This document shows, piece by piece, positions 6,250 to 46,327 of a stretch of 48,124 nucleotides of DNA. The first letter of the stretch is position 1. Every line of letters starts with the position of its first letter. This DNA is from Thermomicrobiales bacterium (GTDB taxonomy: Bacteria; Chloroflexota; Chloroflexia; Thermomicrobiales; CFX8), in NCBI GenBank assembly GCA_023954495.1, contig JAMLIA010000020.1, forward strand, positions 1 to 48,124, given 5' to 3'. The translations under genes and the position numbers were made by a program. The notes below the pieces were generated by a model, which worked only from the letters and a program-made list of their open reading frames with translations, was not told the DNA's origin and ran no database searches.

Positions 6250-6345
6250 GTAGTCGACCGCAGTGAAAGTGTCGGGAGCGGCAGGCCGCGCCGAATCCTG
6301 TCATTTCACGCCCGGAGGGCACCCGGCAGCGAGAATCTCCCCGGC
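6250..6345 (+). repeat. Dispersed repeat, variant B
   Basis: Core cctgtcatttcacgcccgg followed by a cacccggcagcgagaatct segment. It matches the copy at 45290-45361 position by position with scattered substitutions. The 5' part (CCGCAGTGAAAGTGTCGG) is shared with the copies near 45480 and 46220. Confidence 0.65.
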
Positions 6346-6384: not shown

Positions 6385-6420
6385 CTGTCATCCTGAACGG
6401 AGTGAAGGATCCATTCCTCC
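6385..6420 (+). repeat. Dispersed repeat, forward copy
   Basis: ctgtcatcctgaacggag plus tgaaggatcc: a diverged forward copy that is inverted relative to the next copy 20 bp downstream. Pairing of the two would give a long imperfect hairpin. Confidence 0.6.
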
Positions 6421-6439
6421 TCGTATGGCTGCCTCAAAC

Positions 6440-6476
6440 GGGTGGGAGATTTCTCACTGCGGTTCGAAATGACAGG
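6440..6476 (-). repeat. Dispersed repeat, reverse copy
   Basis: Minus-strand copy. Its 33 bp at 6444-6476 are identical to 45384-45416 in the second island, about 39 kb away. Confidence 0.8.
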
Positions 6477-6581: not shown

Positions 6582-6645
6582 CCTGTCATCTCGAGCCGCA
6601 GTGACAGATCTCCCACCCGCCCGCCTCAGTCCAGATCGGAAGAGC
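6582..6645 (+). repeat. Dispersed repeat, long forward copy
   Basis: Starts cctgtcatctcgagccgcag and continues through gatctcccacccg to a tcggaagag tail. The same core and tail recur at 46265-46327, so the homologous unit here is at least 60 bp. Confidence 0.75.
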
Positions 6646-11561: not shown

Positions 11562-13373
11562 TCAGGCCTCTTCGATCCACATCTTGTAGGCCATGTTGTA
11601 GACTTGGCTACCCGAGAGCAGCGGCTCTTCTGGCAGACCCTTCACCCGAGTGGTGAAGAACACGAACCAGTCCCAATACTGCACGAACAGAATCGGCACA
11701 TCTTCGCAGAAGATCTCCTGGACGCGCTTGTAGATCACCTTGCGCTTCTCAGGATCTGGCTCGGCCAGTCCATCTTCAAGCAGCTGATCCATCTCCGGGT
11801 TGGAGTAGTGCGTGCCAAGAGACACGCCAGACCAATCGGAGTGCATCACCGCGGTGGCATCCGGGTCGCCACCAGAACCGCCCCACGTCCAGTTGTGCAT
11901 ACCCATCTGGAGCTTGTTGGAACGGACATCTTCAGTCATGGCAGTCGATTCGACAATGTCAAACTTCCCACCGACCTGGGTGACCCACTGCTGGAACGCC
12001 TCGACGATCGGACGCCGTGCCTGATCGCCCGAGATCATGCCGCACTTCCACTCCAGCCGAACGCCATCCTTTTCACGGACGCCGTCGCTGCCCATGGTCC
12101 AGCCGGCCTCGTCCAGCATCTGGTTGGCCGTATCCGGGTCGTAGTCGTACTTCATGACATCGGTGTCGTCGTGATAATACGCGACTGCCGGCGACAGGTT
12201 GGTCGTGGCTTTCACTGCCAGCCCGCGCCAGATGTCGTTCACGATCGTGTCCCGATCCAGGGCAAACATCATCGCTTGGCGAACGACCTTGTCCTTGAAC
12301 TGATCGCTCGTCGTGTTGATCTGGAAGTTGTTGCAGGCAGTGCTTGACGTGATCGAGACATAGAAATTGCCGCTGTCGCGCAGGCGGATGTTGTCATCCG
12401 TGTTGAGCGACCAGACCGACGAATCGGCCTCACCAGTTTCCAGCGCAATCGCGCGCACCGATGGCTCCGGAACGGTGTTCAGGCGATAGCCATCAAGGAG
12501 CGGGCGACCACGAAAGTGATCCTCGAACGCCTCGAGTTCAACGAACGATGCAGGATCGTAGTCCTTCATCTTGAACGGACCGGTACCAACCGGGTTCGTG
12601 CTGTACTCGGCATCGCCGATCGGCTCGTGAACGTGCTTCGGAACGATGAACGACGAACCGGCCTTGGTGAGGAACGCAGCATTCGGCGCGTCAAGGCTGA
12701 CGACAACGGTCATGTCATCCGGTGCCTCAACGCTGGTTATGCCAACAAAGCGGCTACCGGTCGTCATCGCGTTGTCCGGATTGCCGTAGTATTCGAAGGT
12801 GTACACAACATCCTCAGCCGAGAACGTCTCACCATCATGGAACGGGACATCGGATCGCAGCTTGAATGTGTAGACGGTGCCGTCATCGCTGATCTCATAC
12901 GACTCGGCGAGCGTCGGCTGATACTCGAACCACGGGTCCATTTCGGTAAGTGCGTTATGGATCTGCGTGATGCAGGCCCAGTTGACCGTCGGACCGATGT
13001 AGTCCGGGCTCAGGCCATCGACGCCCTCGTGGCCCATCACAATCAGCATGCCGCCTTGCTTGCCTTCGCCACCGGTGGATTCGGTCGCCTCGGCTGCAGG
13101 CTCCTCGGTCGCCTCGGCTGCAGGCTCCTCGGTCGCTTCGGCTGCCGGCTCTTCGGTTGCCTCGCCGCTGGTATCGGCAGTCGGCTCGGCGGCATCAGCG
13201 GTCGTCGCTGTTGCTGCCGGCGTATCGTCATCGTCGTCACCACCGCAAGCGGAGAGCACCGAGCCGGCCAACGGCAAGGCAGCACCCATGACGACGGCGC
13301 GTTTCAAAAACCCGCGGCGCGAGGTCGGTCCCACGCGCTCAAGCAAATCGGACATGCGTGTTAGTCGATCCAC
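11562..13373 (-). CDS. Family 5 extracellular solute-binding lipoprotein, copy 1
   Basis: Receptor of a peptide/nickel-type ABC importer (SBP_bac_5). The GTG at 13371-13373 is chosen because the protein then opens VDRL like its paralogues (LDRL, MDRL), with AGGAGGGG just upstream; TTG 13379 is an alternative. Signals: twin-arginine TSRRGFLKRA, hydrophobic VVMGAALPLAGSVLSAC with lipobox LSAC, a polyaspartate turn, then a Thr/Glu/Ala linker containing three EEPAAEAT units encoded by a DNA tandem repeat. The mature part carries the family motifs (GLSPDYIGPTVNWAC, YTFKLRSDVPFHDGE, WRGLAVKATTNLSPA) and ends near VFFTTRVKGLPEEPLLSGSQ. It is next to both permeases and is likely their primary receptor. 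Confidence 0.92.
   Translation of the reverse strand: MDRLTRMSDLLERVGPTSRRGFLKRAVVMGAALPLAGSVLSACGGDDDDDTPAATATTADAAEPTADTSGEATEEPAAEATEEPAAEATEEPAAEATESTGGEGKQGGMLIVMGHEGVDGLSPDYIGPTVNWACITQIHNALTEMDPWFEYQPTLAESYEISDDGTVYTFKLRSDVPFHDGETFSAEDVVYTFEYYGNPDNAMTTGSRFVGITSVEAPDDMTVVVSLDAPNAAFLTKAGSSFIVPKHVHEPIGDAEYSTNPVGTGPFKMKDYDPASFVELEAFEDHFRGRPLLDGYRLNTVPEPSVRAIALETGEADSSVWSLNTDDNIRLRDSGNFYVSITSSTACNNFQINTTSDQFKDKVVRQAMMFALDRDTIVNDIWRGLAVKATTNLSPAVAYYHDDTDVMKYDYDPDTANQMLDEAGWTMGSDGVREKDGVRLEWKCGMISGDQARRPIVEAFQQWVTQVGGKFDIVESTAMTEDVRSNKLQMGMHNWTWGGSGGDPDATAVMHSDWSGVSLGTHYSNPEMDQLLEDGLAEPDPEKRKVIYKRVQEIFCEDVPILFVQYWDWFVFFTTRVKGLPEEPLLSGSQVYNMAYKMWIEEA
13081..13152. repeat. Three tandem 24-bp units in the receptor linker
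   Basis: Units at 13081, 13105 and 13129. The first two are identical and the third has three changes. In frame they encode EEPAAEAT-type repeats of a flexible linker, so copy number can vary without a frameshift. Confidence 0.9.
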
Positions 13374-13539
13374 GCTCAATCACCCCTCCTGAGAATGTCC
13401 AACGGTTCGTGTCGTTCGGTTGGTTCGTCACCTGTTGCAACCGAGAAGAGATTGACTGCCGGGCACCTCCCCTCTGCCGTCCCCTTAGAAGTGGAAGATC
13501 TCCCTACGGTCTCTCCCTGTGTGCGTCGAATACTTGTCG

Positions 13540-14853
13540 TCACATTCGTATGACGCCAAGCTCCCCCTCGACCACGACCTGTGTACCAAATTGCTCAGAG
13601 AGCTTCTGGAACCGATTGAGGATACCAGTTGCAACCGCCCCAGTTGCAAGGCGCGGTCGCCCTCGCTGGTGGGTTGCCTCACCAAGCCCGAGCCAAACTG
13701 GATAGATCGTTATCTCTCTGAGGGTCGATCCGTCCCAGTGACAGACCGGGACGATCGTCTCCCAGTAGCGCTGATCGGCCGGGAATCCCTTAGTGTCGCC
13801 CTCGGATCGCTGCGCGTAGACCTGTCCAGGTGTCGTCGTCGGCTCAATCCGAAATGTCTCATACGAATCCGACGGCAGCTTGTACGTCAGCTCGTTCTGG
13901 CCAACGAAGTTGCCGAGGCTGTAGAACACCGGCTTGCCGTCGATGATCTCGACGCCGCGCAGCAGATGCGGACCGTGGCCAACCACGACGTCTGCGCCGG
14001 CCGCGATGACGCTGCGGGCAAATGCTCGGATGAAGTCGGCCGGCTCCTCCTTCGTCTTGCCTTGTTCGTGCGCATGAATGCTGGCAACCACAAGGTCAGA
14101 TCGACCGGCAGCTTCGGCAACCCAGGCGCAGATCTCATCCAGATCGCGCTGGTTCGGTGCCGTCTCAATCCGCGTCGAGTCACCGGCGCGGAAGTTGGCA
14201 TCGAGGAACGGCAGGATGTCTTCGGATGCTGGTGGGAAGCCGAACCCCAGCCGGATGCGATCCAGACGGCGTTCCTCGAGCCCGAGGTTGGTGACGACAC
14301 GGCGCAACGCCGCCAGATCGTCCTCTGGAACGATATACGTCGTGGAGTAGCGCAGCGGGTTGATTCCGGGACGCCCGGCCATGTCGGGCCGCTGGACGCT
14401 CGCTTGCTGCCCCTTGCCAAACGTCGAGGCACAGGCCACCAATCCGACCGACCCGGCGCTCGTGTCCAGATAGGCAGGCATGCGCGCTTCGCCCAGATTG
14501 CGGCCTATGCCTGCCCAGACAATGTCATGTGCGTTGAGGATGTCGATCGTCGTCAGCAGGCCCGACACACCATAGTTCAGGCTGTGATTGTTCGGCATGG
14601 CAAAGAGATTGATTCCGGCGGCCACCAACTCATCAATCACCCACTCATGCGCCCCGAGGTGCGAGCCCCCGCTGTCTTCGACGGGATAGCCCTCAAAGTT
14701 GTTGGGCAACGACTCCAGATTGGTAAAGGAGACGTCGCTCTCCCGGAGAACCTGCAGCAACGCTTGCGTTGGCTCATCCTGATACACGCTGATGCTGCGG
14801 GCGATCAGGCTATCACCCGTCAGCGCCATGCGCAGCGCCTGTTGTTCGGTCAT
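13540..14853 (-). CDS. CapA family protein (poly-gamma-glutamate capsule / metallophosphatase-like)
   Basis: 437 residues of the PGA_cap family, a calcineurin-like metallophosphoesterase relative often linked with polyglutamate export but also found in soluble forms. Motifs: MALTGDSLIAR (9-19), SFTNLESLPNN, ANH-like MPNNHSLNYGVSGL, and the C-terminal VVGHGPHLLRGVEIIDGKP followed by VFYSLGNFV. No signal peptide or membrane anchor is visible, so it may be cytoplasmic. It lies between receptor copies 1 and 2 on the same strand, which suggests a link with the transported compound. ATG at 14851-14853. Confidence 0.88.
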   Translation of the reverse strand: MTEQQALRMALTGDSLIARSISVYQDEPTQALLQVLRESDVSFTNLESLPNNFEGYPVEDSGGSHLGAHEWVIDELVAAGINLFAMPNNHSLNYGVSGLLTTIDILNAHDIVWAGIGRNLGEARMPAYLDTSAGSVGLVACASTFGKGQQASVQRPDMAGRPGINPLRYSTTYIVPEDDLAALRRVVTNLGLEERRLDRIRLGFGFPPASEDILPFLDANFRAGDSTRIETAPNQRDLDEICAWVAEAAGRSDLVVASIHAHEQGKTKEEPADFIRAFARSVIAAGADVVVGHGPHLLRGVEIIDGKPVFYSLGNFVGQNELTYKLPSDSYETFRIEPTTTPGQVYAQRSEGDTKGFPADQRYWETIVPVCHWDGSTLREITIYPVWLGLGEATHQRGRPRLATGAVATGILNRFQKLSEQFGTQVVVEGELGVIRM

Positions 14854-14951
14854 CCAGCGTTTTCCCCTCAGTCTGGCCGATGAACTGGCGCGGAATCAGC
14901 AACCAGGAACCGTGCCCTTGCCGCCGATTTCCCGTCCAACAGCACAAAAAT

Positions 14952-14981
14952 GCCTGGGGTCGCGTTACCGCGTCCCCAGGC
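14952..14981 (-). terminator. Terminator of receptor copy 2
   Basis: Hairpin GCCTGGGG-x-CGCG around a 4-nt loop (12 paired bases with one T opposite T), followed on the minus strand by ATTTTTG. It is 20 bp after the stop, so copy 2 may be transcribed separately from capA. Confidence 0.82.
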
Positions 14982-15001
14982 TGGTGACGATAAACCGGAA
15001 T

Positions 15002-16825
15002 TTAGTCCTCGTCAATCCACAGCTTGTTGGCCATGTTGTAGATCTGGCTGCCGGCTAGCAGCGGCTCCTCCGGCAGGCCCTTCACACGCGTCGTGAAGAA
15101 GACGAACCAGTCCCAGAACTGAATGTAGAGGATCGGCACGTCTTCGCAGAAGATCTCCTGCACACGCTTGTAGATGACCTTGCGCTTCTCCGGATCCGGC
15201 TCCGCGAGGCCATCCTCCAGCAGCTGGTCCATCTCCGGGTTTGAGTAATAGGTACCAACCGACGGGCCCGACCAGTCCGAGTGCAATACGGCGGTCGCGT
15301 CCGGGTCGCCACCGTCGCCGCCGTACGTCCAGTTGTAGAGCGCCATCTGATTCTTGTGCTCACGCACCGAACCGATGATGTCAGTCGTTTCGATGATGTC
15401 CATCTTGCAGCCAATCTGGCTGACCCACTGCTGGACGGCCTCAGCGATTGGGCGGCGTGCCTGATCGCCCGAGATGATGCCGCAATTCCACTGCAGCTTG
15501 ATGCCATCCTTCTCGCGGATGCCATCACCGCCAACAGTCCAGCCGGCCGCATCCAGCGCGGCAGCTGCCTTGTCGAGATCATAGTCGTACTTGGCCACAT
15601 CCGTGTCGTCGTGGTAGTACGCCAGCGCCGGGGACAAGTTCGTTGTCGCTTTCACTGCCAGTCCGCGCCAGATGTCATTGACGATCGAATCACGGTCAAC
15701 GGCATACATCAGCGCCTGGCGGACAGCTTTGTCCTTGAACTGATCCGAAGAGCAGTCCATCGGCATGTGGTTCACCGCCGTGCTGGACGTGATCGACGTC
15801 CAGTACTCACCACTGTCGCGCAGCCGAATATTGTCGTCCGTGCTGAGGGACCAGACCGACGAATCCGCCTCGCCCGTCTCCAGCGCGATCGCGCGCACCG
15901 ACGGCTCCGGCACGGTATTCAGGCGGTAGGCATCGAGGTATGGGCGGCCACGGAAGTGGTCGTCGAACGCCACCATCTCGACAAACGACGCCGGGTCGTA
16001 TTCCGAGAGCTTGAACGCGCCAGTTCCGATCGGCTGGCGGCTGTACTCCTCGTCGCCAATCGGCTCGTGGATGTGCTTCGGCACGATGAAGCCGGAGGCT
16101 CCCTGCGTCAGGAACGCCGCGTTCGGCGTCTTCAGATTGATGACGACAGTGTTGTCATCCGGCGCGTCGACAGTGTCGATCGAGATGAAGTTGCTGCCGG
16201 TCGTCATGGCGTTGTCGGGGTTCGCGTAGTACTCCAGCGTGTACTTCACATCGGCCGACGAGAAGATCTCGCCGTCGTGGAACGGCACGTCCGGATGCAG
16301 CTTGAAGGTGTAGATCAGGCCATCGTCGCTGATCTCGTAGGAGTCTGCGAGGATCGGCTGATACTCGAACCACGCATCCATCTCCACCATGGCGTTGTGG
16401 ATCTGGGTAATGCAGGCCCAGTTCACCGTCGGGCCGATGTAGTCCGGGCTGAGGCCATCGACGCCCTCGTGACCCATGACGATCAGCTTGCCGCCCTGCT
16501 TCGGTTCACCCGCTGCGCCGCCGGTTGATTCGGTTGCTTCCGCTTCGGGCTCCTCAGTCGCCTCGGACGAGCTGCCCTCAGTCGCCTCCGCTTCTGGCTC
16601 TTCGGTTGCTTCGCCGCCGCTGGTATCAGCAGTTGCGTCGCTCGATGCAGCCGTCGTCGCCGTTGCTGCCGGCGTGTCGTCGTCATCATCCCCGCCGCAT
16701 GCGCTCAGCACCGAGCCGGCAAGTGGCAGCGCTGCGCCCATAATCGCAGCGCGCTTCAGGAATCCGCGGCGCGATGTGGCACCGACGCGATCCAGAAGTT
16801 CAGTCATGTTCTGCAATCGATCCAA
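15002..16825 (-). CDS. Family 5 extracellular solute-binding lipoprotein, copy 2
   Basis: Paralogue of copies 1 and 3. TTG at 16823-16825 is chosen as start: AGGTGG lies 6 nt upstream and LDRLQNM aligns with the starts of the other two copies. The frame stays open 21 codons further but without a better site. Twin-arginine ATSRRGFLKRA, hydrophobic AAIMGAALPLAGSVLSAC with lipobox LSAC, polyaspartate, then a Glu/Ala/Thr/Ser linker. The mature domain shares long near-identical stretches with copy 3, such as IVPKHIHEPIGDEEYSRQP and YLDAYRLNTVPEPSVRAIAL. 607 residues. It has its own terminator, so the receptors may be expressed independently and feed one permease pair. Confidence 0.92.
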   Translation of the reverse strand: MDRLQNMTELLDRVGATSRRGFLKRAAIMGAALPLAGSVLSACGGDDDDDTPAATATTAASSDATADTSGGEATEEPEAEATEGSSSEATEEPEAEATESTGGAAGEPKQGGKLIVMGHEGVDGLSPDYIGPTVNWACITQIHNAMVEMDAWFEYQPILADSYEISDDGLIYTFKLHPDVPFHDGEIFSSADVKYTLEYYANPDNAMTTGSNFISIDTVDAPDDNTVVINLKTPNAAFLTQGASGFIVPKHIHEPIGDEEYSRQPIGTGAFKLSEYDPASFVEMVAFDDHFRGRPYLDAYRLNTVPEPSVRAIALETGEADSSVWSLSTDDNIRLRDSGEYWTSITSSTAVNHMPMDCSSDQFKDKAVRQALMYAVDRDSIVNDIWRGLAVKATTNLSPALAYYHDDTDVAKYDYDLDKAAAALDAAGWTVGGDGIREKDGIKLQWNCGIISGDQARRPIAEAVQQWVSQIGCKMDIIETTDIIGSVREHKNQMALYNWTYGGDGGDPDATAVLHSDWSGPSVGTYYSNPEMDQLLEDGLAEPDPEKRKVIYKRVQEIFCEDVPILYIQFWDWFVFFTTRVKGLPEEPLLAGSQIYNMANKLWIDED

Positions 16826-17129
16826 GCTATTCCACCTGTTCTGCGTATCGCTCACATTTCGACGTTCATGGTTTGAACGGAAAAACACCAGACCAGATCA
16901 GCCGCTAAGCCCCTCCCCACGACCACATCGGAACGTCGACATTATTCTCGATCTCCGGTGTTGGGTCTTCAGCGCCACATCCCACCCCCCGCACATGATC
17001 AGCCTTACACGGCTGCTGGCTCGAGATCGTGTCGCCTCGTCGTTCGCACATTCGTTGGAACTATCATCACACAAACAGAACCCGGGGTGCGTTGCCGCAT
17101 CCCCGGGCTTCGAACATCCGGTGGCTACC
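16826..17129. other. Intergenic region between receptor copies 3 and 2
   Basis: 304 bp. It contains the terminator of copy 3 (17081-17107) and the leader of copy 2. No promoter box stands out, and no other gene, repeat or RNA was seen. Confidence 0.5.
17081..17107 (-). terminator. Terminator of receptor copy 3
   Basis: Hairpin CCCGGGG-TGCG/CGCA-CCCCGGG with a 4-nt loop and a one-base bulge. On the minus strand TTCTGTTTGTG follows. It lies 22 bp after the copy 3 stop. Confidence 0.78.
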
Positions 17130-18977
17130 TCAGCCTTCGTCGATCCACATCTTCCAGGCAGTGTTGTAGATCTGGCTGCCGGACAGCAGCGGTTCGTCAG
17201 GCAGACCCTTCACGCGGGTGGTGAAGAAGACGAACCAGTCCCAGAACTGGATGAAGAGAATCGGCACATCTTCGCAGAAGATCTCCTGCACCTGTTTGTA
17301 GATGACTTTGCGCTTGTCCGGGTCCGGCTCGGCAAGACCCTGCTCAAGCAGCGTGTCCATGTCAGGATTCGAGTAGTAGGTGCCGACCGTTGGCCCGGAC
17401 CAGTCCGAGTGCAGCGTCGACGTCGGATCGGGATCGCCGCCTGAGCCACCATAGGTCCAGTTGTAGAGGCTCATCTGGTTAATGTGATCACGCATCGACT
17501 GGATGTTGCTCGTCGATTCCACGATCTCCATTTTGCAGCCAATCTGGCTGAACCACTGCTGGGCCGCTTCAGCGATCGGACGCCGTGCCTGATCGCCGGA
17601 GATGATCGCGCACGACCATTCGAGCCGGACGCCATCCTTCTCACGAATGCCGTCGGCCCCCGCAGTCCAACCCGCCTCGTCAAGAACTTGCGCAGCCTTC
17701 TCGAGGTCGTATTCGTATTTGGCCACATCCGTGTCATCGTGATAGAAGGCCAGCGCCGGCGAGAAGTTGGTGGTCGCCTTTACGGCCAGCCCGCGCCAGA
17801 TGTCGTTCACCACCGAATCGCGATCCAGTGCGTACATCAGCGCCTGCCGGACGGCCTTGTCCTTGAACTGATCAGACGTGCAGTCCATCGGCATGTGGTT
17901 CACCGCCGTGCTGGAGGTGATCGACGTCCAGTATTCGCCGCTGTCGCGTAGCCGAATGTTGTCGTCCGTGCTGAGGGACCAGACCGACGAATCCGCCTCG
18001 CCCGTCTCCAGCGCAATTGCACGCACCGACGGCTCCGGCACCGTGTTCAGGCGGTAGGCATCCAGGTATGGACGACCACGGAAGTGATCTTCGAACGCCA
18101 CCATCTCGACATGTGAAGCAGGATCGTAATCTGACAGCTTGAACGCGCCTGTGCCAATCGGCTGGCGGCTGTATTCCTCATCACCAATCGGCTCGTGGAT
18201 GTGCTTCGGCACGATGAACGCCGACGCGCCCTGCGTCAGGAACGCCGCGTTCGGCGACTTTAGGTTGATCACGACCGTTGCATCGTCCGGTGTCTCCACC
18301 GAGTCGATCGAGACGAAGTCGCTACCAGTCGTCATCGCGTTGTCAGGATTGCCGTAGTAGTCCATTGTGTACTTGACGTCCGCCGACGAGAACGGTTCGC
18401 CGTCCTGGAACGGCACGTCCGGATGCAGCTTGAAGGTGTAGACCATGCCGTCATCGCTAATCTCGTAGGAGTCAGCAAGCGTCGGCTGGTATTCGAACCA
18501 CGGGTCCATCTCAACCAGGGCGTTGTGAATCTGGCAGATGCAGGCCCAGTTGACTGTCGGGCCAGTGTAATCCGGGCTGAGGCCATCAACACCCTCATGG
18601 CCCATGACGATCAGCTTGCCACCCTGCTTCGGCTCACCGGAAGCCCCACTTGTGGCCTCGGTCGCCTCTGGCGCGGCAGCTGTCGGCGACGCCTCTTCCT
18701 CAGGCGCTTCAGTGGCTTCAGCTGCAGGTGTCGAGCCACCACCGGAAGGCCTCGGCGTCGGAATCGTCGTACGCGCCGGCATGGTTGATGTCGGACGCGC
18801 AGCGTTGCTCGACGAGTCTGACGAACTGTCGTCATCGCTATCGCCGCCGCAGGCACTCAGCACTGACCCCACGACCGGCAACGCTGCGCCCATTACGACG
18901 GCCCTCTTGAGGAAGGATCGTCGCGATGACGGCTTGATGCCGTTCAACACATCCTCTAATCTCGACAATCGATCCAT
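17130..18977 (-). CDS. Family 5 extracellular solute-binding lipoprotein, copy 3
   Basis: Third paralogue, 615 residues from ATG 18975-18977 (GGAGAG 7-8 nt upstream). Twin-arginine PSSRRSFLKRA, hydrophobic VVMGAALPVVGSVLSAC with lipobox LSAC. Its linker differs from the other two: Ser/Asp runs, then TTIPTPRPSGGG and Glu/Ala-rich sequence. The mature domain is close to copy 2 throughout and ends VFFTTRVKGLPDEPLLSGSQ. It is the most upstream gene of the locus and has its own terminator. The linkers have diverged more than the binding domains, as expected for tandem duplication with selection on the binding domain. Confidence 0.92.
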   Translation of the reverse strand: MDRLSRLEDVLNGIKPSSRRSFLKRAVVMGAALPVVGSVLSACGGDSDDDSSSDSSSNAARPTSTMPARTTIPTPRPSGGGSTPAAEATEAPEEEASPTAAAPEATEATSGASGEPKQGGKLIVMGHEGVDGLSPDYTGPTVNWACICQIHNALVEMDPWFEYQPTLADSYEISDDGMVYTFKLHPDVPFQDGEPFSSADVKYTMDYYGNPDNAMTTGSDFVSIDSVETPDDATVVINLKSPNAAFLTQGASAFIVPKHIHEPIGDEEYSRQPIGTGAFKLSDYDPASHVEMVAFEDHFRGRPYLDAYRLNTVPEPSVRAIALETGEADSSVWSLSTDDNIRLRDSGEYWTSITSSTAVNHMPMDCTSDQFKDKAVRQALMYALDRDSVVNDIWRGLAVKATTNFSPALAFYHDDTDVAKYEYDLEKAAQVLDEAGWTAGADGIREKDGVRLEWSCAIISGDQARRPIAEAAQQWFSQIGCKMEIVESTSNIQSMRDHINQMSLYNWTYGGSGGDPDPTSTLHSDWSGPTVGTYYSNPDMDTLLEQGLAEPDPDKRKVIYKQVQEIFCEDVPILFIQFWDWFVFFTTRVKGLPDEPLLSGSQIYNTAWKMWIDEG

Positions 18978-41463: not shown

Positions 41464-43542
41464 ATGAGCGAGGATCCATCATCATTGAATATCGCGTTGT
41501 CATTCGACGTCGGCGGCACATTCACCGACTTCGTCGCGATTGATACCGCCACCGGCGCAATCGTCGCGCGGCACAAGGTGCTGACAAACGCGCGCTATCT
41601 GGAGGCAGGCGTTTGTCCGCGGCTGGCAGGAAATGGCCGCCGCCGGACTCGACGCCACCGCACCGGATTCGCAGTCCACTCAACAACGCTGGTGACGAAC
41701 CGCTGATCGAGCGCAAGGGCGCCCGAACGGCCCTGCTCACAACGCGCGGCTTTCGCGACATCCTCGAGCTCGCCCGCGAGCAGCTCTACGACATCTACGA
41801 CCTCTTCGCCCCGCCGCCCGAACCACTGATCGATCGCCCACTCCGCCTGGAGATCAACGAACGCGTGGATGCAAACGGCACCGTTCTCATCACTCCAGAC
41901 CAGCAATCAATCGACGCCGCCGTTAGCACTCTGCGCGCCGCGAACGTCGAGTCGGTCGCTGTCGTCTTTCTCCATGCCTACCAGAACCGGACAATGAGCG
42001 CGCAGTCGCCGCGATCCGCTCCGCTCTGCCGAACATCACGATCTCGCTCATCCGACATCGCCCCAATCGCCGGTGAATACGAGCGCACATCAACCACCGC
42101 CGCCGACGCCTTCACCAAACCACTCGTCCAGCGCTGGCTGTCGGCGAGCTGGAGCAGTCGCTCACCGAATCCGGTATCCCGGCCGCGCTCTACCTGATGC
42201 TCTCGTCCGGTGAACGCTCTCGGCCCCGACAGCGACCGCTCGCCCGATCCGCCTGCTCGAATCTGGCCCGGCTGCCGGCGCAATCGCCGCCGCCTACTTC
42301 GGCCGCCTCGCCGGCTACGAAGACGTGCTATCACTCGACATGGGCGGTACGACCGCCAAAGCCTGCGTCGTCGAAGGCGGTCGCCCCGAGCTGGCGCAGC
42401 TTCTGGAAGTCGCCCGTGCGGCGCTTCATGAAGGGCTCCGGTCTGCCGGTCGTCACGCCCGTCGTTGACCTGATTGAGATCGGTGCCGGTGGCGGATCGA
42501 TCGCCCGCAAGGACGATCTCGGCCTGCTGAAAGTCGGTCCCGACTCCGCCGGCGCAGATCCCGGTCCTGCCTGCTACGGGCTCGGCGGCACGCCTCGACC
42601 GTCTCCGATGCCAACCTCGTCCTCGGCTATCTCAACCCCGACTACTTCCTCGGCGGCTCAATCCCGTTGCGCCCGACCATGCGCGCGCTGCCGTCGCGTC
42701 GCTCGCGGCCGAACTGGACCTGTCAGTCGAGGCAACCGCCTGGGGCATCCACCGCGTCGTCAACGAGAACATGGCCGCGGCAGCACGCGTCCACATCATC
42801 GAGCGCAATCGCGACCCACGCTCAAGAAGACCATCGCCTTTGGCAGCGACCGGCGCATGCCGCCGCGGTCGCCTGCATCCTCGGCAGCCCTCGACTGTCA
42901 TCTTCCCGCCCGGCGCTGGCGTCGCATCGGCCTCGGCGCACTCGTCGCCCCGACGCCTTCCACGGCCGCACCTTCCATGACTGCGCTCGACAGCGCCGAC
43001 TGGGACGCCATCGCCGACGTATACGCCGAGCTTGAGACAACCGCATCAGAAGAGCTGGCCTGTGCTGGTGTCTCCCATCCGATGACATCCGCCACCGCTG
43101 GGCCGAAATGCGCCTCGAAGGCCAGTACCACGAGATCGCCGTCGACCTCCCATCCGGCAGTCTGGATGCTGCCAGCGTTCCGCCATCCGCGCCGCATCTG
43201 ACGCCGCCTACCAGCAGCAGTACGGGGCCGCATCCTCGAAGGCTGCCGATCGAGGTGCTGCACTGGCGTTTGTCCGCCATCGGCCCCGAGCAGCAGGTTG
43301 GCGCGGCCACGCTGCCAATGGGCGACATGACCGCAGACATCGCACTGAAGGGCAGTCGCCCTGTCTGGTTCGACAATCGCTACCGCGACACGCCGATCTA
43401 CGACCGCGATCTGCTCCAGCCCGGCATGCGCATCGTCGGCCCGGCTGTCCTGGAGGAACGCGAAGCGACAATCAGGATCGGACCCGGCGACGACGCTCGT
43501 GTCGACGAACATCTCGCCATCATCACGAGGATCGCACCGTAG
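41464..43542 (+). pseudogene. Hydantoinase/oxoprolinase subunit A (HyuA), many frameshifts
   Basis: ATP-dependent ring-opening hydrolase subunit acting on hydantoins, 5-oxoproline or similar lactams with subunit B. The start gives SFDVGGTFTDFVAIDTATG, the N-terminal ATPase motif, and later frames give [158 protein letters not shown] and, in the last frame, GPAVLEEREATIRIGPGDD. At least fifteen single-base indels of both signs are needed (for example near 41615, 41702, 41985, 42145, 42211, 42420, 42597, 42676, 42816, 42850, 42932, 43083, 43170). No frame-internal stops are needed to explain it. Confidence 0.8.
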
Positions 43543-43552
43543 GAGGAGCCCG

Positions 43553-45224
43553 ATGACCGTCCGACCGACAACACCCGACATAGACTTCGACCCCGTTTCG
43601 CTGGAGATCATGTGGAGCCGCCTCATCGGCATCGCCGACGAGATGTGGACCACCGTCCTGCGCACCGCCGTCTCGACGATCATCGGCGCGGCCCAGGACT
43701 TCGGCTGCGAGATCCTCGATGAGCGCGGCTTCTCGCTGGCCCACTCCTACCGCTCAATGCCCGTCTTCAACCTGATCATGCCCGAGCTGACCCGCGAGCT
43801 CATCCGCGCCTTCCCGATCGAGCGGATGCGCCCCGGCGACGTCTTCACAACCAACGACCCCTGGCTCTGCGCCGGGCACCTCGACGACATCGCCATCATC
43901 ACGCCGATCTTCCGCAATGGCACAGTCGTCGCTTTCGCCAACACCGTCGCCCACACCTCCTCCATCGGCGGCGCGCTCGACGGCATGGCCGTCCGCGACC
44001 TCCACGAAGAAGGGCTCTTCATCCCGCTGCTGCGCCTCTACGATGCTGGCACACCGAACGAGACGCTGTTCGCCTTCATCCGCAGCAACGTGCGTCAACC
44101 CGAAATGGTCCTGACCGGACATCGAGGCGCAGGTGACAGCCAATGTCGTCGCCGAAGAACGCATCCTCGCGCTGATGGACGAATACTGACTCGACTCACT
44201 CCGCGGCCTCGCCGACGCCGTGCAATCGCGCGCCGAAACCGCCATGCGCAACGCCATCGCCACCGTTCCCAACGGCACCTACAGCGCCGAGGAGATGGTC
44301 GAAGCCAACGGCGAGCCGCTGCCGCTTCGCGTCACCATCGAGGTCGCCGACGATCAGATCACGGTCGACTACTCCGGCAGCGCCGCCCAGACGCTGGCCG
44401 GGGGCATCAACTGCACCTTCACCTACACCCGCGCCCACACTGTCTACCCACTGAAGTGCCTGCTGACGCCGAACGTCCCGAATAACGAAGGCTGCTTCCG
44501 CCCGATCATCGTCCGCGCTCCCGAGCGCTCGATCCTGCACGCCCTCCCACCCGCCTCGGTCAACTCACGCACCAAAACCGGCTGGCACATCCACACGCTC
44601 GTCTTCCGCGCGCTGGCCGATGCGCTCCCCGAGCGCGTCCAGGCTGGCAACGGCCTGATGTTCACGATGCGCGGCTACTCCCGCGACGCCGACGGCACCC
44701 CACGCAACGCCCACTTCATCTGCGGCGGCGGTCGCGGCGCTGGATTCGGCCACGACAGCAACACCCGCAACTGCTTCCCGTCCAGCGCTGGCAACGTGCC
44801 GATCGAGATCTTCGAGTCGCGCCTGCCGCTGCTGGTCGAGGAGGACGCACTCGAGTCGTCCTCCGGCGGACAGGGCCAGTGGCGCGGCGCGCCGGGCCAG
44901 CGCGTGACACTCCGCCTGCATCCCGAGCACAAACGACCAGTCGCGCTCTATCTCCACCCGGACCGCCTGCGCTACCCCGCCCCCGGTATGTTCGGCGGCG
45001 AGCCCAGCCTGCGTAACCAGATCATCCTCAATGGCACCGACCTGGCTGCCAACGGCCGCCTCGACCACGGCGAAATCATCCTGGCCACCCCTGCCGACCG
45101 CCTCACCACCATCGTCGCCGGCGGCGCAGGCTACGGTCCACACACCGACCGCGACCCCGCCCTTGCCGCGCGTGACGAGGAGTTTGGGTATGTCGAGAGG
45201 GCTGCTGAAAAGCAGGAAGGCTAA
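43553..45224 (+). pseudogene. Hydantoinase/oxoprolinase subunit B (HyuB), one frameshift and one in-frame TGA
   Basis: Second subunit of the same enzyme. ATG 43553 follows AGGAGG and lies 10 bp after the HyuA stop. The first frame has DPVSLEIMWSRLIGIADEMW, SVSTI-like AVSTIIGAAQDFGCEILDE, RPGDVFTTNDPWLCAGHLDD and DLHEEGLFIPLLRLYDAG. An extra G near 44117 moves the reading to the frame that continues to the end, with VDYSGSAAQTLAGGINCTFT, GWHIHTLVFRALADALPERV, HDSNTRNCFPSSAGNVPIEI and SSGGQGQWRGAPGQRVTLRL. In that frame TGA at 44187-44189 replaces a codon that is Gly in relatives (DEY-Gly-LD). The part after 44190 is intact. Corrected length about 556 residues. Confidence 0.82.
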
Positions 45225-45380: not shown

Positions 45381-45416
45381 CGGGGGAGATTTCTCACTGC
45401 GGTTCGAAATGACAGG
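45381..45416 (-). repeat. Dispersed repeat, reverse copy
   Basis: Its 33 bp at 45384-45416 are identical to 6444-6476. Confidence 0.8.
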
Positions 45417-45475: not shown

Positions 45476-45560
45476 AGTGGACCGCAGTGAAACTGTCGGT
45501 TCGACAGCCACCTCCGTGGCCTGTCATCTTGAGCCGCAGCGAAAGATCTCTCCCGGCGAG
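45476..45560 (+). repeat. Dispersed repeat, forward copy forming the left inverted arm
   Basis: Core 45520-45550 (31 bp) is the exact reverse complement of 46056-46086. The 5' part (GACCGCAGTGAAACTGTCGG, then CGACAGCCACC) matches the upstream parts of the 6250 and 46220 copies. Confidence 0.82.
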
Positions 45561-45583
45561 CACCAATCGCGCGCCGTGCGCGA

Positions 45584-45898
45584 TCATTCCTCGAACCACC
45601 CAGCACTCAAGTCCTCCCAGTCAGGATTCTCTGACTCAATCAGCTCGATCTTCCTGGATCGCAGCCAGTGTTTGAGTTGCTTCTCACGACTGATCGCATC
45701 ATTGACGTACGGGAACTCCTCGTAATAGACGAGGCGCGAGATGCCGTAGCGGCCTGTGAACGTATCCGCTCGTAGCTGCGCATGCTCCCTGATTCGCCGC
45801 TGGAGATCGTTGGTCACGCCAATGTAGAGCGTTCCTGATCGACCGCGCACGTTCGTCACGATGTAAACCCAGTAGGATCGTGGCTGTCGTGGTGACAT
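45584..45898 (-). CDS. GIY-YIG nuclease family protein (single domain)
   Basis: 104 residues from ATG 45896-45898 (MSPRQPRSYWVYIVTN). The single-domain GIY-YIG endonuclease type: VYI and LYIGVTNDLQRRIREH form the GIY...YIG motif with the catalytic arginine, and AISREKQLKHWLRSRKIELI carries the catalytic Glu. The usual ending NPDWEDL is present. Such stand-alone proteins are common, but their targets are mostly unknown. The frame extends upstream only as translated repeat DNA. The gene lies inside the repeat island and is bracketed by a perfect 31-bp inverted repeat (45520-45550 and 46056-46086), which suggests a mobile or repeat-associated unit. Confidence 0.9.
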   Translation of the reverse strand: MSPRQPRSYWVYIVTNVRGRSGTLYIGVTNDLQRRIREHAQLRADTFTGRYGISRLVYYEEFPYVNDAISREKQLKHWLRSRKIELIESENPDWEDLSAGWFEE

Positions 45899-46047
45899 GT
45901 GTTTGTGATCCAGATGCTGCTGGCGGCTTCCCTGGACAAGCCAAGAATATGACGATCCATAAGACGGGCAACGTAACTCGTATTCGGCTGTCTGTCGATA
46001 TGCAAACACCCGGCAACGCCTGGTCTCTCCTGCGTTTGACTTGCTCC

Positions 46048-46086
46048 AACGGGGGGAGATCTTTCGCTGCGGCTCAAGATGACAGG
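46048..46086 (-). repeat. Dispersed repeat, reverse copy forming the right inverted arm
   Basis: 46056-46086 is the exact reverse complement of 45520-45550. Together they flank the GIY-YIG gene in a 567-bp unit. Confidence 0.85.
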
Positions 46087-46264: not shown

Positions 46265-46327
46265 CCTGTCATCTCGAACCGCAGTGAGAGATCTCCCACC
46301 CGCTCGATGCAGTCCCACTCGGAAGAG
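46265..46327 (+). repeat. Dispersed repeat, long forward copy
   Basis: cctgtcatctcgaaccgcag through gatctcccacccg to tcggaagag; aligns with 6582-6645 along its whole length. Confidence 0.75.

Follow-up and report, generated by a model that had tools for sequence, protein, structure and literature searches.

A single-domain GIY-YIG nuclease gene framed by TGTC-tagged hairpin repeats in a Thermomicrobiales genome, a candidate REP-like cassette

Near one end of a 48,124-nucleotide stretch of DNA from a Thermomicrobiales bacterium (the whole stretch that was analysed, hereafter the window), a short gene for a GIY-YIG nuclease stands alone between two inverted copies of a repeat that is also scattered through the intergenic spaces of the genome. 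The arrangement raises the question of whether gene and repeats belong to a single element, and whether the nuclease, rather than a transposase, could be the enzyme that spreads them.

The gene, its arms and the repeat family

The left arm (45520-45550, plus strand) and the right arm (46056-46086, minus strand) are exact reverse complements of one another over 31 bp, as the first-pass annotation had stated. Each carries a TGTC tag at its outer end, and each represents the type of repeat here called A (GAGATCTTTCGCTGCGGCTCAAGATGACAGG), with a hairpin (ATCTT..AAGAT) that finds its support in covariation within the family. The enclosed gene, likewise correctly read in the first pass, occupies 45584-45898 of the minus strand, including the stop codon, and encodes a single-domain protein of 104 residues (MSPRQPRSYWVYIVTN...SAGWFEE) with a clear match to the Pfam profile PF01541 (E=8e-16; 58.6 bits against a cut-off of 22.6). 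Among 12 members of this GIY-YIG family, Y12, G27, R35, H39, E72 and N91 are invariant and Y25 is nearly so; judged by such alignment, the family retains the residues expected of an active enzyme. The open frame extends to 46141, across the right arm, and the ATG that gives the 104-residue product is the likely start. From this codon to the right arm runs a leader of 157 bp (45899-46055) bearing the loop segment TCTCCTGCGTTTGACTTGCTCCAACGGG, which it has in common with short doublets of the repeat elsewhere in the same genome.

Further copies of the repeat stand on both sides of this unit, a type B copy at 45384-45416 on the minus strand and a type C copy at 46265-46297 on the plus strand. Types A, B and C are the three main forms of the repeat and differ from each other at few positions. 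At the opposite end of the window, a short REPIN-like inverted doublet at 6386-6476 joins a TGTCAT...ATC element (6386-6411) to a type B mate (6448-6474), and a type C-like copy follows at 6582-6614 on the plus strand. An identical 33-mer 39 kb away had been attributed to the family of the arms; it does exist, at 6444-6476, and its identity is to the type B neighbour at 45384-45416 and not to the arms that bracket the gene. The earlier count of at least nine copies in the window also needs amendment, for 6 copies fit a degenerate 33-mer at up to 3 mismatches (0 expected from 100 shuffles) and 7 form the strict tagged hairpin, and nine are reached only when degenerate pieces, such as those near 6279, 45320 and 46115, are included. 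The TGTC tag is present in all copies in the window.

Two other features of the window concern protein genes. Hydantoinase B at 43499-45224 looks split over two overlapping frames, with positions 1-177 of the Pfam profile falling in 43499-44485 and positions 213-518 in 44220-45224, which appears to be a frameshift or an assembly error. Three adjacent paralogues of the family 5 solute-binding proteins, approximately 76-82% identical across long stretches, lie at 11562-18977.

Across the 3.36-Mb genome the repeats are abundant and mosaic, with 87 copies at up to 3 mismatches compared to 0 for a reversed-pattern control. The same genome holds five matches to PF01541, two of them long and UvrC-like (open frames of 688 and 611 aa) and three single-domain, and all three single-domain genes adjoin copies of the repeat. 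The arm subtype goes with the gene copy. Type A arms enclose the window gene and type B arms the gene on contig 8; on contig 32, where the gene is interrupted by a TGA codon, one arm is of type B and the opposite one is B-like with an altered loop. The cassettes of contigs 8 and 32 lie at unlinked loci, share 91% identity over 557 bp, and cease to match a few tens of bases beyond the arms. A variant of the repeat in which a longer GC-rich insert (CACTGCCGGGTGCCCCCAGGGCGGCAAATGACAGG) replaces the loop was seen in two copies (contig 32, around the interrupted gene; locus L033).

The hairpin itself is a conserved feature of the family. The stem AT-NNN...NNN-AT is preserved over 14 arm variants drawn from the genome of the window and its relatives, with 97% of cells able to pair and the AT/AT positions invariant. 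Compensatory change was found at four of the seven stem pairs, amounting to 25 double-change cells as opposed to 0-2 in controls with slid partners. In the type found in the window, the stem comprises 5 bp, a break and 2 bp, where the break is always GA opposite GA, an arrangement that can form sheared G-A pairs. By folding energy, individual arms are weak hairpins, no better than shuffles; covariation, not energy, is the informative test here.

Copies often occur as inverted doublets whose TGTC tags face outward, spaced 60-62 bp apart in the genome of the window and approximately 78 bp apart in the relative G011. The doublets of G011 are sharply bounded units of 102-107 bp with unrelated flanks, and the GIY-YIG gene of that genome sits at the loop position of such a doublet. 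Some doublets are central within an outer palindrome (p=0.001 in the relative G018, p=0.048 in G011 with 80-bp flanks), a placement that is suggestive, and no more, of target choice. Four TGTC doublets of G018 (L222, L226, L230 and L233) mark the centre of a larger palindrome whose outer arms resemble GGAGTTTGACGAATT, a picture that would result if one palindromic element had inserted into another.

Association of nuclease gene and repeat across genomes

Many of the genomes compared are fragmentary assemblies. Within the order, 16 of the 41 genomes have homologues of the nuclease, and in several relatives these carry stop codons and are pseudogenes. Many of the homologues with full flanks are enclosed by near-perfect, genome-specific inverted arms of the same superfamily, and the inverted-repeat score reaches at least 18 at 11 of the 20 GIY-YIG loci of these order-level relatives. 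The repeats occur in 15 of the 16 relatives that have the gene and in 10 of the 25 that do not (Fisher p=5e-4). A strict one-to-one co-occurrence of gene and repeat is ruled out by five relatives (G001, G015, G018, G025 and G039) that have many copies of the repeat and no detectable member of the nuclease family, and which require either loss of the gene or another driver. Tagged copies number 150 in G025 and 56 in G015, where the driver may have been lost or have diverged.

A wider set was drawn from the best 80 matches of a single scan, of which 75 loci had enough flanking sequence, spanning the Chloroflexi, Acidobacteria, Bacteroidetes, Alphaproteobacteria, Clostridia and others. A flanking inverted repeat scoring at least 18 was found at 40 of these 75 GIY-YIG loci, compared to 2 of 438 shifted intervals taken from the same contigs with gene classes unmatched. 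On the same contigs, strict tagged hairpins are 21.6 times denser within 500 bp of the GIY-YIG gene than elsewhere, and the tag is outermost in 52 of the 72 nearest arms (p=1e-4). The sequences of the arms differ strongly by lineage, for instance TGTCATTCCTGCGNAGGCAGGAATCCA in flavobacteria and CGTCATGGCCGGGCTTGACCCGGCCATCCA in Magnetospirillum, and in such genomes they are dispersed as well. Up to seven GIY-YIG paralogues were found per genome, and about half of the single-domain genes are without clear arms.

The association is specific to single-domain genes. In 15 further genomes, strong flanking inverted repeats accompany 21 of 47 single-domain and none of 20 multi-domain GIY-YIG genes, and tagged hairpins accompany 17 of the 47 and again none of the 20 (p=0.0014). 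The check on enrichment that had been set beforehand therefore found the repeats concentrated at single-domain GIY-YIG genes in the genome of the window (3/3), in the cross-phylum set and in these further genomes alike. Chance pairing and a general effect of gene flanks are excluded by the shifted intervals, by other genes and by the multi-domain GIY-YIG genes. The same observations bear on passive hitch-hiking, in which dispersed repeats recombine and at times carry the gene along with no role for the nuclease. Recombination would be expected among repeats so abundant and mosaic; still, the shifted-interval and multi-domain controls, the closeness of the arms to the gene with their tags turned outward, and an enrichment limited to one nuclease family over many phyla whose arms are otherwise unrelated in sequence all make this explanation very unlikely.

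RAYT-type genes provided a positive control. At the Y1_Tnp loci of order-level relatives, strong inverted repeats belonging to those loci were found in 16 of 25 cases and the TGTC tag in none, and 17 other loci in the same group of relatives had neither strong inverted repeats nor the tag. Two REP-like systems thus coexist in these genomes, each with an enzyme of its own. The earlier description of the window locus as a layout of the REP/RAYT type with a GIY-YIG enzyme in place of the transposase is apt. It might be supposed that a RAYT moves the tagged repeats too and that the GIY-YIG gene is a bystander, given that RAYT-type genes exceed the cut-off in 18 of the 41 genomes. This is hardly credible, as the tag is missing from all 25 Y1 loci, the genome of the window has no match to Y1_Tnp above the cut-off, and no RAYT was found beside CGTC-tagged REPs, which apparently lack a dedicated transposase, in the study that defined those repeats (Di Nocera et al. 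2013; PMC3733652). A RAYT as the mover of the TGTC-tagged repeat was rejected on the first two of these grounds. Beside the tagged repeats, no enzyme gene other than that of the GIY-YIG nuclease was found.

Occupied and empty sites

Whole cassettes, as well as short doublets, are present in some genomes and absent from the orthologous sites of others in genera outside that of the window. In the relative G028, a cassette lies in an intergenic gap of 954 bp, as opposed to 52 bp in its 91%-identical congener G018, although the exact ends of the cassette are not fixed by this comparison because the aligned gap takes in some DNA outside the arms. Conversely, a doublet of 148 bp is present in G018 and absent at the aligned site of G028. 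In Azospirillum lipoferum 4B (L370), the gap between sufB and sufC is 617 bp long and holds a cassette flanked on either side by a full doublet; in A. ramasamyi, A. oryzae and strain B510 (95-96.5% identical) it measures 87-129 bp, and the site is free of repeats in these close relatives. Shinella sp. PSBB067 (L375) has an independent cassette, bounded by different arms, directly after sufB. In these two organisms the sufB-sufC gap of the suf operon holds cassettes that differ in their arms and whose nucleases have diverged, and in Sphingomonas parapaucimobilis a gene for a DUF559 protein is annotated in the same gap. Sinorhizobium Ak57 and strain K101 both carry the cassette, and for this reason the pair is uninformative on insertion; in Sinorhizobium meliloti Ak57 (L369), the GIY-YIG gene is found amid CCTCATCCCTGTGCTCGTCACAGGGATCCAGC repeats; we take these to resemble the rhizobial RIME1 element.

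The unit was thus found as an insertion, a condition on which the first-pass annotation had made its proposal depend, between G028 and G018 and at sufB-sufC of Azospirillum, and not at the site in the window itself, where identity to the same-genus relative is only about 75% in the flanks that were compared and the spacer at the window copy is not alignable. With this and the enrichment at single-domain genes, the proposal withstood both of the checks set for it. Among the doublets of G011 and G018, no constant target-site duplication was seen.

The main rival to spread by the nuclease supposes that another agent has spread the repeats and that the nuclease either homes into them or works through them for the host, and the relatives G015, G018 and G025, with many repeats and no detected gene, would fit this rival. 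Taken as homing, it would have the nuclease recognise such repeats and its gene enter doublets through cutting and repair copying. GIY-YIG enzymes include homing endonucleases, which lends this explanation some plausibility, as do the gene at the loop position of a doublet and the repeats that occur without the gene. We nevertheless regard it as unlikely, since the close relatives of A. lipoferum have no repeat at sufB-sufC, so that the cassette must have come with its repeats, which counts against pure homing; the match between arm subtype and gene copy and the lack of any other enzyme gene found beside the repeats speak in the same direction.

Known systems and a proposed mode of spread

The CGTC-tagged REPs, which include dRS3 of Neisseria and RPE-4/6 of Rickettsia, are defined by a CGTC tag, also found as TGTC or CCTC, a stem starting with AT and a loop of 4-5 bases; most members end in a CCA tail, and they occur in high copy between genes, mostly as HH dimers (Di Nocera et al. 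2013; PMC3733652). The arms of the window have in common with them the CGTC/TGTC tag, the AT start of the stem, a loop of 4 bases and the inverted (HH) intergenic doublets, but the unbroken stem of 8-9 bp is replaced by one with the GA/GA break, and the CCA tail by CTC. The window arms are for these reasons a sister variant of the CGTC-tagged REPs rather than members. Closer agreement is found elsewhere: the arms of Magnetospirillum, Azospirillum and flavobacteria have unbroken stems, the alphaproteobacterial and flavobacterial arms end in ATCCA where the window type ends in ATCTC, and the published description applies to the arms that accompany the GIY-YIG genes in Magnetospirillum, Azospirillum and flavobacteria. 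Both A. lipoferum and S. meliloti are on the list of CGTC-REP carriers (PMC3733652), and the GIY-YIG genes of both stand among repeats of the CGTC type. While the CGTC-tagged REPs were published without a dedicated transposase, the repeats of the window are accompanied by a nuclease gene.

Three other kinds of element invite comparison. Like the REP/RAYT systems (REPtrons and REPINs), the window locus has an enzyme gene framed by a repeat that is also dispersed as inverted doublets, with the difference that an HUH Y1 transposase and a GTAG tag are found there and a GIY-YIG nuclease and a TGTC tag here. Insertion sequences are similar in the terminal inverted repeats that frame an enzyme gene and in the occupied and empty orthologous sites, seen here in relatives, whereas no constant target-site duplication was seen among the doublets of G011 and G018. 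With free-standing GIY-YIG homing endonucleases there is a common catalytic fold, and selfish spread is plausible for both; in place of an intron or a single conserved target, however, the cassette has its own multi-copy hairpins framing the gene, and it enters sites that lack those hairpins.

The closest known enzyme is perhaps Ssn. This family of site-specific GIY-YIG nucleases, the subject of a 2025 report in Nature Communications, reportedly cleaves single-stranded DNA at sites scattered through the genomes of Neisseria and other organisms, and the Neisseria enzyme reportedly modulates natural transformation. A relative of the window protein in N. gonorrhoeae, 48% identical over 93 positions, stands among copies of CGTCATTCCCGCGCAGGCGGGAATCTAG (dRS3-type, CGTC) and may be Ssn. 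Both are small single-domain GIY-YIG proteins tied to a multi-copy repeat; where Ssn and its sites reportedly form a pair that affects transformation, the window protein is a candidate nuclease of its own arms. The pairing of nuclease and repeat is, given the Ssn family, probably not new. We know of no claim in the Ssn work that gene and arms form a mobile cassette, or that the sites are the CGTC-REP superfamily, and a literature search returned no paper with both CGTC and GIY-YIG and none linking GIY-YIG to REPs; the mobility of the cassette as a unit and the cross-phylum link to the CGTC-tagged REPs appear to be new.

The gonococcal relative and the role ascribed to Ssn give some weight to a host-serving, site-specific nuclease of single-stranded DNA, with dispersed sites that would modulate DNA uptake or genome rearrangement and with mobility as a by-product. 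Such service is improbable, considering that patchy presence of the gene (16 of 41 relatives), pseudogenes (the TGA in the contig 32 copy and the stops in several relatives), up to seven paralogues per genome, and presence and absence at orthologous sites all have a selfish look.

A compact selfish cassette of the REP-like kind, with an Ssn-like nuclease that drives its spread, its own recognition hairpins as arms and the doublets as non-autonomous derivatives, is the reading we consider probable. The two TGTC-tagged REP copies that enclose the single-domain nuclease would be its recognition hairpin, and the scattered inverted doublets, each of two hairpins with tags outward and a loop of about 30 bp, would stand to it as REPINs do to RAYTs. 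The conserved hairpin, the recurrent pairing of gene and repeat and the reported behaviour of Ssn suggest that the nuclease recognises the tagged hairpin in single-stranded DNA, at a replication fork or during uptake, and introduces a nick at the tag or close to it. DNA that is released in this way, or that now has a 3' end, may then enter a new site by copying or joining, often at a further hairpin or the end of a gene, and presumably with no fixed target-site duplication. That the window protein would cut its arms, that the cut would drive movement and that movement would pass through such a DNA intermediate are steps suggested in this way, with the travelling cassettes pointing to the cut as the cause of spread.

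More tentatively, the GIY-YIG nuclease could be the dedicated mobilising enzyme of the whole superfamily of CGTC/TGTC-tagged REPs, in parallel to RAYT with the GTAG REPs, a superfamily that would then encompass Neisseria dRS3, the rhizobial, Bradyrhizobium and flavobacterial repeats, and those of the order to which the window belongs; to this extension we would allow slightly less than an even chance. The CGTC-tagged REPs are widespread small bacterial repeats, and the question of what moves them was left open in the paper that defined them (PMC3733652). The GIY-YIG family offers a named and testable candidate, found inside the repeats in phylum after phylum, specific to them, and travelling with them into empty sites. 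If this is true, many proteins annotated as 'GIY-YIG nuclease family protein' would be recast as components of selfish elements, the GIY-YIG nuclease would join the known enzymatic drivers of small mobile DNA, and bacteria would harbour a class of mobile element that needs the action of a GIY-YIG nuclease on hairpins in order to move.
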